Source of the DNA: Natrialba sp. SSL1
Lineage (GTDB): Archaea > Halobacteriota > Halobacteria > Halobacteriales > Natrialbaceae
Length of the DNA stretch: 55,246 nucleotides
Assembly: GCF_001861355.1 (NCBI RefSeq)
Contig: NZ_MASN01000016.1
Span: 1-55,246, forward strand
Direction: 5' to 3'
The notes under the pieces: model-generated
Told to the model about the DNA's origin: nothing
What the model saw: only the letters and a program-made list of their open reading frames with translations
Database searches by the model: none
Shown here: positions 18,984-31,577 of the stretch, one piece after another
Layout of the letters: every line of letters starts with the position of its first letter
Position numbering within the stretch: position 1 is the stretch's first letter
Translations under genes and position numbers: made by a program

Positions 18984-20045
18984 CTACAACAGTCCCGACG
19001 CATCCTGCAGCGCCCGATACGTCGTCAGATACCGGTCCCGAATCTCCGCCCGATCGTACTCGTCGAACTCGTCATCGAGATCGCGGTACTCGAGTCCCCC
19101 CGCCTCGATAATCGTGTCGCTGAGTTCATCTTCGCTCGTCGTCCGGAAGCCCCGATCCCAGCCCTCGACGAGTTCGTGGGCACTCGAGTCGGCGTGGTAC
19201 TCGACGACGCCGACGCAGCCGGCGGCGAGCGCCCAGAGCATCTCGGTCGGGAAAACGCAGTATTCGGCAGTCTGTGCGAAGACGTGTGCGCCGCGGTAGG
19301 CGGCGATTCGCTCCTCGAGTGAGCGGTCGCCGGCGAACGTGACACGGTCTTCGATACGGAGGTCGCTCGCGAGTCGTTCGTACGCCTCGCGCTCGGGGCC
19401 GTCGCCGATGACGGTTGCCTGCCAGTCGCGGTCACGATGTTCGGCGAGCGCGAGCAACAGGCTCTCGAGGTTCGCCCCCTCGTCGAGGCGGCGGGCGTAG
19501 ATAACATCGGCCCGTTCGCCAGGCTGGACTTCACGTATCTGTTCGACATTGATCGGATTCGCGATCGGATCGACCGCCTGCTCGCTGACGCCGAGTTCGC
19601 GAACCCAGGTCGCGACGAGTTCGGAGGGGACGAGGTTTCGGTCGACGGATCGGGCGGCGAGTTTGCGCCATCGATCAGTTGGGACGCCGTCCATGCCGTA
19701 CCACTCGGCGACCACGGGCGCTCTGGCCAGCGTCGCACCGAGACTGGCCGCGATGACCTGTCCCGGTCGCTGTGCGCTGACGTGGACGATATCGGGACGC
19801 GCACGGGCGAGGACGTACGGCAACCGGACGAGAAACGAGGCGGTGGCCTCGAGTTCGACGGAAACGCCGTGGTACGTGATTCCCTCGCGTTCGAACGTTG
19901 CGTGTTCGCCGTCCCAGAACTGCGTACAGTAGACGTGGACGTCGTGGCCGGCGTCGTCGAGTAGTTCGAGAACGCTCTGCAATCGTCGGTTCGTCTCGGT
20001 ATCGCGGTGGAAACCCGTTTCAGCGGAGACGAACGCGACTCGCAT
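18984..20045 (-). CDS. GT4-type glycosyltransferase
   Basis: A 353-residue GT-B fold protein. The N-terminal Rossmann-like half starts MRVAFVSAETGFHRDTETN and includes HVSAQRPGQVIAASLGA and a PVVAEWYG strand. The C-terminal half has ARRLDEGANLESLLLALAEH, VIGDGPEREAYERLA and FPTEMLWALAAGCVGVVEY, the nucleotide-sugar-binding E-x7-E-like region. It would transfer a sugar to a glycan or lipid in the cytosol. The ATG at 20045 is chosen because a TATA-like box is 27 nt upstream and the fold starts there. Acceptor and sugar are unknown. Confidence 0.85.
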   Translation of the reverse strand: MRVAFVSAETGFHRDTETNRRLQSVLELLDDAGHDVHVYCTQFWDGEHATFEREGITYHGVSVELEATASFLVRLPYVLARARPDIVHVSAQRPGQVIAASLGATLARAPVVAEWYGMDGVPTDRWRKLAARSVDRNLVPSELVATWVRELGVSEQAVDPIANPINVEQIREVQPGERADVIYARRLDEGANLESLLLALAEHRDRDWQATVIGDGPEREAYERLASDLRIEDRVTFAGDRSLEERIAAYRGAHVFAQTAEYCVFPTEMLWALAAGCVGVVEYHADSSAHELVEGWDRGFRTTSEDELSDTIIEAGGLEYRDLDDEFDEYDRAEIRDRYLTTYRALQDASGLL

Positions 20046-20069
20046 ATGGCATCGCCACGCAGGGATGGG

Positions 20070-20076
20070 ATAAAAA
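20070..20076 (-). promoter_or_regulatory. TATA-like box for the glycosyltransferase gene
   Basis: On the minus strand TTTTTATC lies about 27 nt before the ATG at 20045, the normal spacing for a leaderless haloarchaeal mRNA. Confidence 0.45.
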
Positions 20077-20222
20077 GTCACTTCTTTCGTGCGGTGAGTT
20101 CCGAGTAAGTCGCCCGCAGTAGAGCCTGTCTCCTGTTGGCTCCATCGAGAAGAACCGCATAATGACCGGCGAGTTGGCGCTCACCGGTTGCGGACGGTTG
20201 CCGTCAGTTGGCCATCACTGCG

Positions 20223-21971
20223 TCAGTCGAACAGTTCGTTCGCGAGTTCGATCTCGTCTGAGAACTGGTCAACCATCGACGACGGACCGCTGGCCTGGTG
20301 TCCCGCGTCAGCCTTCTTTTTGTCGTCGGTTTCGAACGCTGCGGCGTCATCCGTTGGTTCGTCTCGGTCTTTCTTGTCCTTCCTGTCGTCGTGCTTCTTG
20401 TCCTTCTCGTCGTCTTCTTCAACGTCGAGGGCGTCACCCTCGTCCTTGTCGTCTTTCTCGTACTTTTTGTCCTTCGTGTCTTTCTTGTCCTTCTCCTCGT
20501 CTTCTTTGACATCGAGTACGTCAGCTTCCTCTTCGTCCTCTTTCTTGTCTTTCTTGTCCTCCTCGTCTTTCTTATCTTTCTTCTCGTGGTGCTTGTCGTC
20601 CTTTCTGTCGTCTTTCTTGTCCTTCTCGTCTTTCTCGTCCGGTTCCTCTAGCTCCGCTGCCTCAGGCTCGTCCTTGTCGGCTTTCCTCTCGTCTTTCTTG
20701 TCGTCGTGTTTCTTGTCATCCGCTTTCTCTGCCTTTTCGTCCTTCTCGTCTTCGTCTTCAACGTCGAGAGGTTCGGTGTCCTTCTTGTCTGCTTTCTCGT
20801 CCTTCTTGTCGTCCTTGTCGTCCCTGTCGTCCTTCTCTGCCTTGTCCGCCTTCTCTGCCTCTTTGTCCTGCTCGTCAACACGGTCCTCATCTGTTGGCTT
20901 CTCGTCCGTCTCTTCAACCGGTTCAGCCGCCTTCACCTTCTTCGGTTCATCCACCGGCTCTTCTTTCTCAGGTTTGTCGACCTTGTCGACCTGCTTCTCG
21001 TCGTCTGTTACGGGCTTCTCATCGTCTATGACTGGCTTCTCGTCTTTCTCATCTTTCTTGTCCTCGTCAGGCTTCTCAACCGGTGCATCGTCATCCTTCT
21101 CGTCAACTGGCACCTCATCCTTCACCGGTTCATCATCTTTCGCCGGTGCGTCGTCATCCTTCTCGTCCTTTTCAGGCTCTTCAACCGGTGCGTCGTCATC
21201 TTTCACCGGTTCCTCATCCACTGGCTCCTCATCCTTTTCCGGTGCATCTACCGGCTCATCGTCTTTCTCCGGTGCATCGTCATCCTTCTCGTCCTTTTCA
21301 GGCTCCTCAACCGGTTCATCATCGTCTTTCTCCGGCTCATCGATCGGGTCGTCATCGACCGGCGTCTCGTCAACATCGTCCATCACGAACGACACCAGCA
21401 CGACGTTCGGTCCGTACCGGTCCACGAGCTCATCGAGTGACAGCTCTGCCGTGTCCACGTCACTGTCGCACTCGAGTTCGACTTCGTCTTCATCGAGGGC
21501 GACATCCTCGCCATCCGCGGTGGCGACGAACTCGTAGGTGTCGTCGGCGAGGCCGACGAACGTGACGTTGTCGGTCGCTGGCACCGTCACGGTCAGTGAG
21601 TGGGTGGTCTCCTGACCGTCGTCGGTAGCGGTACTTTCAGTCTGGAGGTTCGTCAGGAGCTGTCCCTGTGTCTGGACCTGGAACTGATCGTACTCGGCAG
21701 TCCAGGTCATCGTCAACTCAGTATCGCTCTCCGTCGGATTCTCGACGGTGATGTGTGGTTCGTCCTCACAGTCTTCTGTGACGAGGAGTTCGTCACCGGG
21801 AGCAGTGTCTACCGGTTCGTCGTCTTGTGCCCCGACTGCTGCTGCCCCACCGACGCTTGCGACGGTGAGGCCGACAACCACGACGATCGTGAGCAATCCC
21901 GCCAAGAGGCGTTTCCGCGTGTCTGTTCGCCCTATGCGTCCATCTGCTTTCTGAGTGTCTGTGTCTCTCAT
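20223..21971 (-). CDS. Exported Lys/Asp/Glu-rich polyampholyte protein
   Basis: A 582-residue protein from the ATG at 21971. Residues ~21-46 form a signal peptide or anchor (KRLLAGLLTIVVVVGLTV...). Residues ~52-170 look like a folded, beta-rich domain containing two Cys (EDCEDEP and ELECDSD) that could pair. From ~178 to ~545 the protein is almost only Asp, Glu, Lys, Pro and Val/Ala, in degenerate repeats: first EPEKDEKDDDAP and DEPVD-type units, then LDVEEDDEKDKK-type units about 40-55 residues apart. The C-terminal ~35 residues are ordinary sequence (SMVDQFSDEIELANELFD). High lysine content is unusual in a halophile. Function unknown; I recognise no family. Confidence 0.75.
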   Translation of the reverse strand: MRDTDTQKADGRIGRTDTRKRLLAGLLTIVVVVGLTVASVGGAAAVGAQDDEPVDTAPGDELLVTEDCEDEPHITVENPTESDTELTMTWTAEYDQFQVQTQGQLLTNLQTESTATDDGQETTHSLTVTVPATDNVTFVGLADDTYEFVATADGEDVALDEDEVELECDSDVDTAELSLDELVDRYGPNVVLVSFVMDDVDETPVDDDPIDEPEKDDDEPVEEPEKDEKDDDAPEKDDEPVDAPEKDEEPVDEEPVKDDDAPVEEPEKDEKDDDAPAKDDEPVKDEVPVDEKDDDAPVEKPDEDKKDEKDEKPVIDDEKPVTDDEKQVDKVDKPEKEEPVDEPKKVKAAEPVEETDEKPTDEDRVDEQDKEAEKADKAEKDDRDDKDDKKDEKADKKDTEPLDVEDEDEKDEKAEKADDKKHDDKKDERKADKDEPEAAELEEPDEKDEKDKKDDRKDDKHHEKKDKKDEEDKKDKKEDEEEADVLDVKEDEEKDKKDTKDKKYEKDDKDEGDALDVEEDDEKDKKHDDRKDKKDRDEPTDDAAAFETDDKKKADAGHQASGPSSMVDQFSDEIELANELFD

Positions 21972-22347
21972 CAACGCGGCCCTCGACGGTAGCACTTGAC
22001 AGAGGTGTTCTTTGTTATGCTCACCAGACACGATCGTAATGGCCGTCAGGAAAACAGGGCTGTCTGCACACTATATTCCCAGATTCCATTCAGAAATAAA
22101 GATCTGGGAAAATCGTGATTTCGTTCGGTGTAACCGTTTCTCCGTGGGTGTTGAACCGTTTCAGCGCCACTAGCGGGAACGAAACACTAGACTGGAAGCC
22201 GGCCGCGCGGACGCAACTCCAGTTTCACAGTGGAGACACTCGTTCTCCCGGGCGCTATCCATCATTACTCCAGGCTCAATCGATACTACCTGGTGTCGGG
22301 AGCGACGGTCGAACAGCGGGTTCGTTGGTCAGTCGATCGTTACTCCG
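21972..22347. other. Intergenic region upstream of the polyampholyte gene
   Basis: This 376-nt stretch separates two minus-strand genes and probably contains the promoter of the gene starting at 21971. GAATATAGTG (minus strand, near 22065-22075) is the best TATA-like candidate but is about 100 nt from the ATG, which would give a leadered mRNA. The motif AACCGTTTC occurs twice, at about 22132 and 22153. No ORF is supported. Confidence 0.35.
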
Positions 22348-23118
22348 CTACTCGTCTGTTCCGTTCGTTTCGATCGGTTCACCGTCGCCATCATCGCCAT
22401 CATCGTCATCACCACCAATACCGCCAAACCGTTCCTCGAAGAACGAGTCGAGACCGTCGAAGATGCTGCCGTCGTCATCGTCGATCTCGTTGTCCTCGCT
22501 CTGTTCGTCCGCTGGACCGCTCTCTGGTTCGGTGTCCGTGTCCGGTGCAGTCTCAGTTTGATTCGCGCCGCTGTCGCTCTCGCTTTCGTTGCCGCTAGCA
22601 CCAGCGGCGTCCTCATCTCCTTCCTCTCCGTCGGCACCGTCAGTCGCCGTCTCGTTCTCACTCGTCTGTGCGCCAGTGTCTGTTTCCGAACCCGGGTCCG
22701 AATCAGCCTCAGACGCTGGCTCCGACGGTGTGTCTGACTCGGACTCTGATTCCGACTCTGTCTCCGATTCCGATTCGTTGACCACCGCGCTCCCGTCATC
22801 GGCACTGTCGGTGGACTCGAGGAGGTCGCCGCCAGTGTCTGCGGTGGCGTCAGTGTCAGTGTCAGTGTCGGTGTCGCCGCCCACCAGTTCGGGGCCGACG
22901 ATAGCGACGGTGGTGCCGAAGGCGGCGAGGACGATAATGATTGTGACGAAGACGATGGCGGTGCCGCCGTTGCGAGCGTCCGGTGGGTTCGAGGCTGCGG
23001 TGGCAGTAGAGGGAGCGGGAGAGTCCGAAGGTGCAGCGGGTGTTTCGGAGGATGTGTCGCTCTCAGCGCGATCCGCGCGGTCCGCGCGGTCCGAGCCATC
23101 CGTACCGTCGGCTGTCAT
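22348..23118 (-). CDS. Single-pass membrane protein with Ser/Asp/Glu-rich tail
   Basis: A 256-residue protein. Residues 1-50 are polar and acidic, ~52-78 form one TM helix (GTAIVFVTIIIVLAAFGTTV), and the remaining ~175 residues are a low-complexity acidic stretch with TD, SE and DG repeats. The last ~45 residues include a possible amphipathic segment, IFDGLDSFFEERFGGIGG. It may anchor an acidic extracellular tail. The ATG overlaps the stop of the 37-residue gene upstream (ATGA), so the two are probably translationally coupled. No known domain. Confidence 0.7.
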   Translation of the reverse strand: MTADGTDGSDRADRADRAESDTSSETPAAPSDSPAPSTATAASNPPDARNGGTAIVFVTIIIVLAAFGTTVAIVGPELVGGDTDTDTDTDATADTGGDLLESTDSADDGSAVVNESESETESESESESDTPSEPASEADSDPGSETDTGAQTSENETATDGADGEEGDEDAAGASGNESESDSGANQTETAPDTDTEPESGPADEQSEDNEIDDDDGSIFDGLDSFFEERFGGIGGDDDDGDDGDGEPIETNGTDE

Positions 23119-27692: not shown

Positions 27693-28682
27693 TCAGAGCG
27701 TCTCGAGTATCCCCAGCACGCGCTCCTCCGCCTCCCGATCCGGCCCCTGCTCCCGTCCGTCACGGTCACTCTCGAGATGGTCTTCGACCGACTGTTCCAT
27801 GGCCGACTCGAGTGGTGTCGACTCCCAGCCGAGGGCAGCGAGTTTCGCCGTCGACAGTACGTGGGGATACTCGCGGTAGAGCGGGTAGTCGGTGGGGCCG
27901 ATCTCACCGGCGGCGAGTTCGCGCGGGCCGGCGTGGACGACGTCCACGGTGGTCCCCAGTGCATCGGCGATCAAATCGACCATTTCGTCGAGCGTCACGA
28001 GCTGCCGGTCGCCGACGTTGTACGCCTCGCCGGCCTCGCCGCGCTCGGCGACGATACGGAGCGCGCTCGCGACGTCCTCGACGTAGGCGCGGTGCCAGAC
28101 GTTGGTGCCGTCGCCCGGTACCACGACGCGGTCGTGCTGGTTCACCCGGTCGATCCAGAAATCGAGCCGTTCGGTGTAGTCGTCGGGCCCGTAGACGATA
28201 CACGGGCGGACAGACATGGCGTTCACGCCGCGGTTCGCGGCTGCCTCGATGGCGCGGTCGCCCGCCGCCTTGCGCTTGCCGTAAGTCGCGTCCGAGTCGT
28301 CGGTCGCCTCTTCAGGCGAGCAGGACTCGAGTGGTGTCTCGTTCTCGCGCTTGGGAATCTCCTCGCGGCCGTAGGCTGCGCCGCTGGAAATGTAGACGTA
28401 GGCTTCGCAGTCGGCGAAGATGCGGGTGGCTGCCTGCACGTCCTTCGGATAGTAGGCGACGCAGTCGAAGACAGCATCGGGGTCGGTGGTTGCGGCGGCG
28501 GCCTCGAGTGCGGAGTCGTTGGTGCGGTCGCCCTCGATGTGGTCGACGCGGTCGTCGTCCGCGAACGGGTTCTCGCGGGTGCCGCGGTTGAGAAGGGTGA
28601 CGTTGTAGTCGTGCTCCAGCAGGTCCGAGACAAGGTGACGGCCGATGAATCGCGTGCCGCCGATGACGAGTGCGGTGTCCAT
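27693..28682 (-). CDS. NAD-dependent epimerase/dehydratase (extended SDR)
   Basis: A 329-residue protein with the extended short-chain dehydrogenase fold. The cofactor loop is VIGGTRFIGRHLV at about 6-18, followed by LNRGTREN and DRVDHIEGDRTN. The catalytic Tyr and Lys lie in YGKRKAAGD at about 134-142, after the Ser-rich ISSGAAYG. It resembles CSP41-like nucleotide-sugar epimerases. RxxxxGPDD (RPCIVYGPDD) is also present. The C-terminus is acidic. The substrate is unknown. Confidence 0.88.
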   Translation of the reverse strand: MDTALVIGGTRFIGRHLVSDLLEHDYNVTLLNRGTRENPFADDDRVDHIEGDRTNDSALEAAAATTDPDAVFDCVAYYPKDVQAATRIFADCEAYVYISSGAAYGREEIPKRENETPLESCSPEEATDDSDATYGKRKAAGDRAIEAAANRGVNAMSVRPCIVYGPDDYTERLDFWIDRVNQHDRVVVPGDGTNVWHRAYVEDVASALRIVAERGEAGEAYNVGDRQLVTLDEMVDLIADALGTTVDVVHAGPRELAAGEIGPTDYPLYREYPHVLSTAKLAALGWESTPLESAMEQSVEDHLESDRDGREQGPDREAEERVLGILETL

Positions 28683-28953
28683 ACGGGCACATCGCAGACG
28701 TGTGGGAAAACGGTAGCGGATGTGTCGAACCAGCGGTGGACGCGTAAACGGCGGCTTCAGCGGCTGGTGACGGCGCTCAACGACGGTGCACGCTTACGCA
28801 CGCTCAGGATTTATCCGCATAATCTGCATAGCACGCCCGTCGGACGCACGCACTGCAGTCGGCGACTAGCTCGTCGCGTCGCGAGCGCTCCTCGCGGCGC
28901 GCACACCAACACTCGGTTCAGACGGAGAACGACAGCTGTCTGAAATCAGAACC

Positions 28954-30741
28954 ATGAACGACCGATACGACCGACACGACCGTCGACGACCGGACGACCG
29001 ACAGGTACCGAACGAATCGGAAAGACGGAACGCGGGCGAGCGAGATCAGGGCTACCGCGACGACCGACGATCACAACCGCGCGGCGAACGCGAGCAGTGG
29101 CCACAGGACGAGGGCCGGCGCGAACCGCAGGGCCGACGAGCGCGCGACGACACCCGACGAGGCAGACGTGATAGCGGGCAGCAACACGGACGTGGCCGCG
29201 AAGGCGGCCGACAGCGTGGTCGAGACGACCAGCAACAGCAACAGCGACAGCGGCAACGACAGGGATTCGAGACCGACCTGGGCGAGGCCGACTCACTCGA
29301 GTACGGTGGGCAGGCACGCCACGACCGTGGTGGTTCCCGATACGACGAGCGCGGGCACGAAGCAGTCGATGTCGACGAGCAACAGCGCCGGCGCGGCCGG
29401 CAGGGGCAGTCACAGGACCGTGGGCAACAGCCGCGACAGGAGCGTGGGCAGCAACCGCGACAAGACCGGAGACAGCAGCCACGACAAGACCGTGGTCAAC
29501 AGGCCCGGCAGGAGCGAAGTGGACAGCCACGGCAGGACTACGGCTACGACGAACAGCGACGCGGTGACTCGCGAGGACAGAGCCGACAGCAACCGCAGGA
29601 CCGCGACACGCACCGCCACCAGCACGAACCTGGCCAATCGTCTTTCGACTCCGGTGCCCACTCTCGATCGGCACAGTCGGGTCGGACTGAACGGCGTCCC
29701 CGAGACACCGAGGGTCGCCACGCACAGGACGACCGGCGACAGCGACAGGGGTTCGAAACCGACGTGCAGAACGCGGATGCACTCGAGTACGGCGGCCAGG
29801 CGCGGCGACCGGAACGTACCGGCGAGATGCCGCGACCCGAGGGCCAACAGGACCGTCACGAGCGACGCGGTGCGGATCGACAGGGTGAGTCGACTGATCG
29901 TCGGTCTGACCGACCACCTGAGATGGCGGCTTCCGGCCGGTCGGGCGACAGGGGCAGGGGTGGAGCGCAACGAACACAGGACGACCGGCGGCGAGAGCAG
30001 GGGCCGCGGCAGGGGCAGTCGACGGCGGGTCGCCATCAGCGCAGCCAGGGCTTCTCGGGCCAGCAGCCACCACAGAGCGATGAATCGATGGGTGGCCGTG
30101 GCGGCGGATACGACGACGGACGACAGCAGCGAGAGCCCGAGCGTCGATCCCGACAGGAGCGCGGCCAGTCTCAGTCCCAGCCCCGACGGATGCCGGAGGG
30201 GCGGCCGGACCGGCGACGAGATACCGGGTCGGGCGATGAGCGGCAAACCGAGACGCGTGAGCCGCCGACGGAGCAGCGCTCGCAGCGGTCGTCTTCGTCT
30301 GCATCGTCCACAGATCGATCCTCGTCTCGACCGACGGATGCACAACCGGGTCCGCACAGCCAGGGTGGCGGGTCGGACTACCGGAGCAGGCAGCGAGATG
30401 CCCGATCCCACGGGTCCGAGGGCCGGTCGAGGGAGGCGCAGGACGAAGACCGGCGCACAGCGCGGGAGCCAGAGCGGCGAGACGACCGCGGTCGCGGTGA
30501 CCGGACGGGCGGCGGACTCCAGTATCGCCAGACCGGTCGCCGGTCCGAGCAGGGAAGTTGGACGGAAGACCGGGCGGACGCCCAACAGTCGAACGAAGCG
30601 TACGATGACGACGACCGGCGGATGGACGAGGAGCCGAATAATCGTCGTACAGACGACGATATGGACAACCGGCGTCACGTCCACGAGCGCGACCCGGTCG
30701 GCGATCGGGACAGAGACCGTGACGATCCGCGGTCCGAATAG
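28954..30741 (+). CDS. Arg/Asp/Gln/Gly-rich intrinsically disordered protein
   Basis: A 595-residue low-complexity protein made mostly of Arg, Asp, Gln, Gly, Glu and Ser, with RGQQPRQDR-type tandem units at about 158-200 and no hydrophobic segment. Two copies of GFETDxxxADxLEYGGQAR are spaced about 167 residues apart (near 100-120 and 267-287). Most differences between the copies fall in third codon positions of this frame, direct evidence that this frame is coding even though two other frames are also long and open. The motif is the only part that looks foldable. High Arg and Gln content is atypical for haloarchaea. No family recognised; RNA/DNA binding or condensate formation is speculation from the RG/RD content. 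Confidence 0.7.
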   Translation: MNDRYDRHDRRRPDDRQVPNESERRNAGERDQGYRDDRRSQPRGEREQWPQDEGRREPQGRRARDDTRRGRRDSGQQHGRGREGGRQRGRDDQQQQQRQRQRQGFETDLGEADSLEYGGQARHDRGGSRYDERGHEAVDVDEQQRRRGRQGQSQDRGQQPRQERGQQPRQDRRQQPRQDRGQQARQERSGQPRQDYGYDEQRRGDSRGQSRQQPQDRDTHRHQHEPGQSSFDSGAHSRSAQSGRTERRPRDTEGRHAQDDRRQRQGFETDVQNADALEYGGQARRPERTGEMPRPEGQQDRHERRGADRQGESTDRRSDRPPEMAASGRSGDRGRGGAQRTQDDRRREQGPRQGQSTAGRHQRSQGFSGQQPPQSDESMGGRGGGYDDGRQQREPERRSRQERGQSQSQPRRMPEGRPDRRRDTGSGDERQTETREPPTEQRSQRSSSSASSTDRSSSRPTDAQPGPHSQGGGSDYRSRQRDARSHGSEGRSREAQDEDRRTAREPERRDDRGRGDRTGGGLQYRQTGRRSEQGSWTEDRADAQQSNEAYDDDDRRMDEEPNNRRTDDDMDNRRHVHERDPVGDRDRDRDDPRSE

Positions 30742-30926
30742 CCCTGAACCAGCAGTTGGCTGCCGAGCAGACGGCTCACTACGCAGTCGACCTCCCGTGA
30801 TGGGGTAATTCCGCACCAACCGTACTTTTTGACGCGCTCGCCGGCGCTACTTGCGCAGACGCTCAGTCATCCAGTATCCGCGAGCGAGGACCGTGAGTTA
30901 TTACGCTGACGTGTGAACCAGCGTGC

Positions 30927-31577
30927 ATGAGCGATCAGGACGACACAGCCGGCACGGACTCAGACACAGCCGACGATACAACTGCAGAATCGAGCACCAC
31001 ACCGTCCCTTGCAGACGATGCCATGGCGAATTTCCCAGTCCCGGACTTTGAGAACCTCCCCGAGGACCTCCAGGAACGCATCACCGAAGAAACCGAGCGC
31101 GCTGGCTTCACGCCGAACGTCTTCTCCGCGTTCGCGTACAAGCCCTCGCACTTCCGAGCGTTCTTCCAGTACCACGACGCGCTCGTCGAGGACACCGCAC
31201 TCGAACGTGAGGAGATCGAGATGATCGTCGTCGCGGTCTCCGGTGTTAACCACTGTTACTACTGTAACGTCGCACACGGGGCACTCGTGCGGATCTACGC
31301 CCAGGACCCGAAGTTGGCAGACCAGTTGGTCGCGAACTACCGAACCGCGGATATCAACGAGACCCATCGTACGATGCTCGACGTTGCGGTGACACTCACC
31401 GAGCGACCGATGGAGGTCGAGCAATCGGATCTTGACCGGCTCCGCGAAGCCGGGTTCAGTGAAGAAGCACTCTGGGACATCGCCGCCGTAACGGCGTTTT
31501 ACAACCTGAGTAACCGGATGGCGATGTTCGCCGAGATGCGGCCGAACGACGAATTCCACACGCTCGGCCGAAACTGA
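30927..31577 (+). CDS. Peroxidase-related AhpD-like protein
   Basis: A 216-residue cytosolic protein of the carboxymuconolactone-decarboxylase/AhpD superfamily (peroxidase-related enzyme type). The redox motif is VNHCYYCNVAHGALV, with Cys-x-x-Cys and the following His at about 108-116. REEIEMIVVAVS precedes it, as in AhpD. The first ~35 residues are an acidic Ser/Thr/Asp leader. A TATA-like TTATTA at about 30898-30903 lies 24-29 nt upstream of the ATG, fitting a leaderless mRNA. It probably acts in peroxide or thiol defence; reductant unknown. Confidence 0.87.
   Translation: MSDQDDTAGTDSDTADDTTAESSTTPSLADDAMANFPVPDFENLPEDLQERITEETERAGFTPNVFSAFAYKPSHFRAFFQYHDALVEDTALEREEIEMIVVAVSGVNHCYYCNVAHGALVRIYAQDPKLADQLVANYRTADINETHRTMLDVAVTLTERPMEVEQSDLDRLREAGFSEEALWDIAAVTAFYNLSNRMAMFAEMRPNDEFHTLGRN

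Follow-up and report, generated by a model that had tools for sequence, protein, structure and literature searches.

Known disordered scaffolds and the high-salt setting

Multivalent docking by disordered chains is illustrated by CsoS2 of the carboxysome and EPYC1 of the pyrenoid, which carry repeated short motifs on variable linkers. The haloarchaeal cytoplasm holds molar KCl, and haloarchaeal proteins are typically acidic. Phase separation at comparable salt has been described for FUS, whose phase-separated state returns above 1.5 M KCl, and for the peptide PR25, which undergoes it by itself at 2.7 M KCl (PMC7889641); Arg-rich peptides show this high-salt re-entrant behaviour and Lys-rich peptides do not (PMC9705477).

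A lysine-free disordered protein in Natrialba

We highlight a protein of Natrialba sp. SSL1 encoded in contig NZ_MASN01000016.1, of which the whole analyzed stretch of 55,246 nucleotides is referred to here as the window. The open reading frame at 28954-30741 of the forward strand encodes 595 residues followed by a TAG stop. In the feature list, A1 denotes the C-terminal profile and A2 the LEYGG profile of the family.

27693..28682, minus strand: NAD-dependent epimerase/dehydratase, the divergent neighbor (Pfam; synteny context)
28787..28818, plus strand: conserved promoter block TGCACGCTTACGCACGCTCAGGATTTATCCGC (19 aligned upstream regions, several genera)
28954..30741, plus strand: lysine-free Arg/Gln/Asp/Gly-rich protein, predicted disordered, 595 aa (composition, orthologues, dN/dS, AlphaFold2)
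28954..28971, plus strand: N-terminal motif MNDRYD (18-row alignment: M1 and D3 invariant, D6 nearly so)
29263..29325, plus strand: first FETD-LEYGG motif GFETDLGEADSLEYGGQARHD (F105, T107, L115, G118, G119, A121 and R122 invariant; profile A2)
29749..29811, plus strand: second FETD-LEYGG motif GFETDVQNADALEYGGQARRP (E 4.7e-14 to profile A2)
30001..30054, plus strand: GRHQRSQG motif GPRQGQSTAGRHQRSQGF (recurs in orthologues of several genera)
30505..30570, plus strand: GGGL motif TGGGLQYRQTGRRSEQGSWTED (G7, G8, G9, L10, R18, E20, G22, W24 and T25 invariant in A1)
30652..30705, plus strand: C-terminal motif DDDMDNRRHVHERDPVGD (R61, R62, H63, V64 and H65 invariant in A1; R573, R574, H575 and H577 in A4)
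30927..31577, plus strand: carboxymuconolactone decarboxylase (CMD)/AhpD-like protein, the downstream neighbor (Pfam, NCBIfam TIGR01926; synteny context)

The original prediction of a disordered protein rich in Arg, Asp, Gln and Gly was exact in coordinates, length and composition, the residue counts being R134, Q81, D73, G73, E50, S48 and P33 (Arg 22.5%, Gln 13.6%, Gly 12.3%) with no Lys, Cys or Ile. It had also called the frame almost free of hydrophobic residues, and Ile, Leu, Val, Phe, Met and Cys together indeed account for only 21 of the 595 positions; aromatic residues are modest in number (17 Phe, Tyr or Trp). The protein has a pI of 10.3, a Kyte-Doolittle GRAVY of -2.41 and a net charge per residue of +0.018. 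Across 32 orthologues the net charge per residue ranges from -0.02 to +0.07 and the pI is mostly 9-11.5, with zero to three Lys and no Cys. Neighboring proteins of the window contain 4-8% Arg, 1-4% Lys and 16-22% Asp plus Glu, which makes this protein a compositional exception; with its high pI and its lack of lysine beside acidic neighbors, it is as unusual for a halophile as had been proposed. The long Gln runs of the same proposal were overstated, the longest run being five residues, although Gln is abundant overall. The sequence contains 19 RG dipeptides and three isolated RGG, but neither di-RGG nor tri-RG.

AlphaFold2, run on an 18-row alignment, gave a mean pLDDT of 41.2, a pTM of 0.20, values below 50 at 563 of 595 residues and no assigned secondary structure at all, which is consistent with a wholly disordered chain. 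Inspection of the sequence revealed no hydrophobic stretch of the signal-peptide or transmembrane kind. Pfam, NCBIfam and PHROG models did not match the protein, a Pfam search of 18 orthologues (E <= 0.01) returned no family, LEA families included, and profile A1 matched nothing among PDB chains at E <= 1.

Conserved motifs on variable linkers

Two copies of GFETDxxxADxLEYGGQAR lie at residues 104-122 (nt 29263-29319) and 266-284 (nt 29749-29805) and are identical at 15 of 19 positions; the best pair of 19-mers in 200 composition-preserving shuffles never exceeded 12 matches, so that the repeat noticed originally stands. The differences between the copies were said to concentrate at third codon positions and do so (4/1/10 by codon position). 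Natrialbaceae proteins carry one to three copies of the LEYGG motif, and the motifs of the family comprise MNDRYD, [S]GFETDA...NLEYGGEARH, GRHQRSQG, SGGGLEYRQxGRRSEQGxWTE and DDMSNRRHVHERDP, together with DRGWLHGLFSRG, which has no counterpart in the window's genus. The GRHQRSQG motif appears in orthologues of several genera as QGQPxxGRHQRSQG or RRHQRSEG, and an L[EQ]Y...R core inside the GGGL motif resembles the LEYGG motif.

The columns that are invariant in the 18-row alignment (M1, D3, F105, T107, L115, G118, G119, A121, R122, G165, G521, W536, R573, R574, H575 and H577) fall almost entirely inside motifs, while the linkers vary freely. LEYGGxAR, GGGLxYRQ...GxWT and RRHVH, joined in other genera by GWLHGLFSRG, account for many of the protein's aromatic and aliphatic residues. 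Conserved short motifs on variable linkers agree with the scaffold-like architecture of the original prediction; its docking helix does not fit, since AlphaFold2 found no confident secondary structure and the motif contains a Gly-Gly pair.

Coding status and selection

Judged from its substitution pattern, 28954-30741 is a genuine protein-coding gene under purifying selection. Comparison with the orthologue of genome G005 gave a dN/dS of 0.19 at a dS of 0.46, nucleotide differences of 49, 45 and 160 at codon positions 1, 2 and 3, and nine alignment gaps, each a multiple of three; in the N. aegyptia/taiwanensis/asiatica group the dN/dS ratio reaches 0.28-0.30, and the selection claimed earlier is thereby borne out. 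With motif bounds drawn roughly, dN/dS in the G005 comparison is 0.12 in motif regions vs 0.21 in linkers, and gapped columns number 2 of 117 vs 47 of 502. Two-fold amino acids favor GC-ending codons in frame +1 (GAC 57:16, CAG 63:18, CAC 14:1).

Other long open reading frames overlap the region, two of them antisense (465 and 469 aa) and one in the +2 frame (546 aa). Coding in these frames was rejected, as substitutions and indels fit frame +1; since it is at third codon positions in frame +1 that variation is greatest, these frames are by-products of Arg, Gly, Gln and Asp codons. A search for coding constraint in other frames thus found none. Homologues with disrupted frames do exist as truncated or deleted copies, but the majority keep the frame.

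Distribution, synteny and loss

Profile A1 has matches in 53 of 125 Natrialbaceae genomes, almost invariably at a single locus, and three further genomes (G029, G033, G049), recognized through the LEYGG profile or on inspection of the locus, raise the total to about 56 of 125; among the non-Natrialbaceae genomes of a 391-genome class sample A1 gave no convincing match. Genera with relatives include Natrinema, Halopiger, Halobiforma, Natrialba, Natronorubrum and Natronolimnohabitans. Full-length orthologues span 333 to 759 aa, and shorter and degenerate forms occur too; short members in genus g19 are about 160 aa long and acidic (net charge per residue -0.25) and lack most motifs. The locus is ordered S9 peptidase, G1P dehydrogenase, epimerase (divergent), in some genomes a KaiC-like gene, the gene for the disordered protein, CMD/AhpD, gltB and ProRS. 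The window protein has the FETD-LEYGG, GGGL...W and RRHVH motifs that define the family and lies at this locus, between the epimerase and CMD/gltB.

The gene is missing or damaged in several genomes. Genome G004, of the same genus, carries a clean deletion equivalent to window 28919-30825, with joined flanks 93% and 89% identical and a promoter core that is kept but damaged by one base; G072 still has the promoter and the start along with a stub of the gene; G003 has an open frame shortened to 180 aa; and elsewhere the DUF123-like and CMD genes come straight after the KaiC-like gene, with no gene for the disordered protein in between. The deletion, the stub and the loci lacking the gene indicate that it is dispensable over evolutionary time. 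A viral or plasmid origin was rejected, as neither the C-terminal profile nor the sequence found a relative in IMG/VR or PLSDB. Our reading of the literature on disordered, Gln-rich or phase-separating haloarchaeal proteins yielded no description of the family, whose existence and motif layout we hold with confidence and which is undescribed in the resources consulted.

Upstream of the gene, the promoter block has the consensus TGCACGCGAACKCACGCTCnGGnTTTATCCGC across the aligned regions, with a TATA-like TTTATCC at 28810-28816 preceded by a 19-nt element that contains a direct repeat spaced 10 bp (CACGCTTACG/CACGCTCAGG). Exact matches to its 18-nt core in 12 genomes lie at this gene only; a regulon search with the element in the 12 genomes found no second gene, and matches with two mismatches stayed near the reversed-pattern control. 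A conserved block of this specificity suggests gene-specific regulation.

Neighboring genes

An operon with the epimerase was rejected, the genes being divergent, as was one with CMD/AhpD, because other genera carry a further gene between it and the gene for the disordered protein, one that the window's genus lacks. This small conserved gene (L134-L143; MSGTYVLVIDV...YVGSAFGPGGFSRVERHREL, GTYVL...YVGSAFGPGGF), which we take to be DUF123-like, lies between the KaiC-like and CMD genes of other genera.

The KaiC-like protein is a Zn-ribbon protein of about 335 aa encoded directly upstream of the disordered protein (L081, L086-L088, L102, L106 and others). Its Walker A region reads GDEGTRRSEL in place of the usual GK[ST], which makes it a putative pseudo-ATPase. 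The gene is present in 60 of 125 Natrialbaceae genomes and in none of the window's genus, for which reason an obligate pairing was rejected. In genus g3 (L131, L132) the KaiC-like protein bears a long Gln/His/Arg-rich low-complexity extension at its N-terminus, and no separate disordered protein was found there.

Elsewhere in the window, two minus-strand genes encode proteins that lack a Pfam match. The first (20223-22031, 602 aa) has a hydrophobic segment at its N-terminus and a very long low-complexity region rich in Asp, Glu and Lys; it is lysine-rich, which is unusual for a haloarchaeon, and shows up as an AT skew of -0.58 at 20001-21000. The second (22348-23118, 256 aa) combines a single hydrophobic segment with a long tail rich in Ser, Thr, Asp and Glu and is possibly membrane-anchored and displayed outside.

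Probable relatives outside Natrialbaceae

Profile A2 matched three non-Natrialbaceae genomes at E about 1e-3, at loci that encode R/Q/G-rich disordered proteins with GLQYGGEARHDQ, GLQYGGEARHEQ, NLEYGGESRHEQ and YAYGGESRHDQ. The iterated profile A6 added members in families f3 and f6, those of f6 sharing an N-terminus with RYRQGGRE and a TPPKQPHQQP motif. These proteins (e.g., L188, L189, L190, L223-L228) present LxYGG[EDQ][AS]R within an R/Q/G-rich disordered protein and resemble the window family in L-x-[YF]-GG-[ED]-[AS]-RH and, in f6, also in the N-terminus; they differ from it in locus, in having no clear RRHVH or GGGL...W and in extra motifs such as that of f6. By tblastn, none of the window's neighbor genes was detected at three of these distant loci. 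Since the first matches are weak and low-complexity sequence can mislead, we grade these LxYGGxxRH proteins as probable distant homologues, on motif and composition. Additional Q/R/G-rich low-complexity proteins are encoded near the distant relatives (L192:532-2253, minus strand; L193:1-712, minus strand), which suggests that in some haloarchaea there are several disordered proteins of this kind.

Possible functions

Invariant motifs, freely varying hydrophilic linkers and a neutral charge form the pattern of a multivalent docking scaffold. We therefore favor, tentatively, a sticker-and-spacer scaffold whose condensates or networks would recruit a partner at molar KCl. The chain is presumably a cytoplasmic, disordered, near-neutral polyampholyte, in which long hydrophilic linkers would serve as spacers free to change length, and the motifs LEYGGxAR, GGGLxYRQ...GxWT, RRHVH and GWLHGLFSRG could function as stickers, or as sites at which one or more partner proteins dock. 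In a cytoplasm of molar KCl, Arg-rich chains that contain aromatics would be expected to associate via non-ionic contacts, and the resulting condensate or network may recruit the partner. Given the high-salt phase separation of FUS and PR25, it is plausible that a chain rich in Arg and free of Lys would condense under these conditions in the living cell. We consider it rather unlikely, and speculate only in this sense, that the protein is an archaeal scaffold dedicated to condensates and adapted to multimolar KCl, in which the use of Arg but no Lys and a charge near zero would place re-entrant phase separation at native salt, with LEYGG and GGGL recruiting a specific client and with versions in several haloarchaeal families. 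The short acidic members without most motifs and the few aromatics of the window protein speak against a scaffold, and the absence of the gene from about half of Natrialbaceae means that any such role is non-essential.

It is possible, at a probability that we would call low, that the protein instead acts as a protectant of the hydrophilin or LEA type, a hydrated Gly-rich chain without specific partners that shields macromolecules in desiccation, salt shift or freezing. Its Gly content is above the 6% expected of hydrophilins, its GRAVY, taken as a stand-in for their hydrophilicity index above 1, is extreme, and it has no Cys; patchy presence and dispensability fit as well, and the gene-specific promoter block is compatible with conditional expression. 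A bulk role, however, needs no invariant Trp, Tyr, Phe and Leu motifs, yet strong conservation is confined to just these, and LEA families were among those that Pfam failed to match.

A nucleic-acid binder akin to RGG- or RS-type proteins, which would organize RNA or the nucleoid, is doubtful. The Arg content, the RG dipeptides and the pI of the window protein would suit such a function, but almost all orthologues have a net charge near zero, one has a pI of 6.1, and the short versions are strongly acidic, so that a generic binder of RNA or DNA is not favored. A neutral polyampholyte in molar KCl would moreover be expected to bind only weakly by electrostatics. The likeness to eukaryotic RGG proteins drawn in the original prediction loses its ground for the same reasons, with three isolated RGG and none in tandem.

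There is little probability that the protein is an accessory subunit of the KaiC-like protein, the two forming one functional unit. In most genera the KaiC-like gene does immediately precede that of the disordered protein on the same strand, and among 125 genomes 39 have both genes, 17 the disordered protein only, 21 the KaiC-like protein only and 48 neither (odds ratio 5.2, uncorrected for phylogeny); the extended KaiC-like proteins of genus g3, in which no disordered protein was found, point the same way. The entire region is syntenic, though, which makes this adjacency weak evidence, the genes are usually about 150-300 bp apart and the disordered protein has its own promoter block, and the window's genus lacks a KaiC-like orthologue while its disordered protein retains two LEYGG motifs intact.

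That the frame is spurious, or decaying functionless low-complexity sequence with the true coding elsewhere, can be dismissed: several genomes carry truncated, broken or deleted copies and the other frames are rather open, but dN/dS of 0.19-0.30, third-position excess, in-frame indels and conserved motifs and promoter block refute it.

Comparison with known systems

A neutral, lysine-free and apparently wholly disordered family with invariant motifs departs from the acidic rule of haloarchaeal proteins and has no Pfam or NCBIfam entry. It resembles hydrophilins and LEA proteins in Gly above 6%, extreme hydrophilicity, lack of Cys and predicted disorder, but differs from them in its conserved aromatic short motifs and in matching no LEA family. 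To low-complexity proteins of the FUS/hnRNP type it is similar in being rich in Arg, Gly and Gln and poor in Lys, with dispersed aromatics; unlike these it has no RNA-binding domain and no family match, few RGG and much Asp and Glu. If the protein condenses, it would offer a natural test of whether and how condensates function when 2-4 M KCl screens ionic attraction; the physiological branch would then be the high-salt one described in vitro for FUS and Arg-rich peptides. From CsoS2 and EPYC1 it is set apart by the lack of a Pfam match and of a PDB match of A1, by only one to three LEYGG copies by the absence of a compartment gene nearby and by its occurrence, in this analysis, only in haloarchaea. 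Nonetheless it would work like them in presenting a repeated short motif, one to three LEYGG plus GGGL, on a disordered chain. The LEYGG motif also offers a specific bait with which the partner could be sought.
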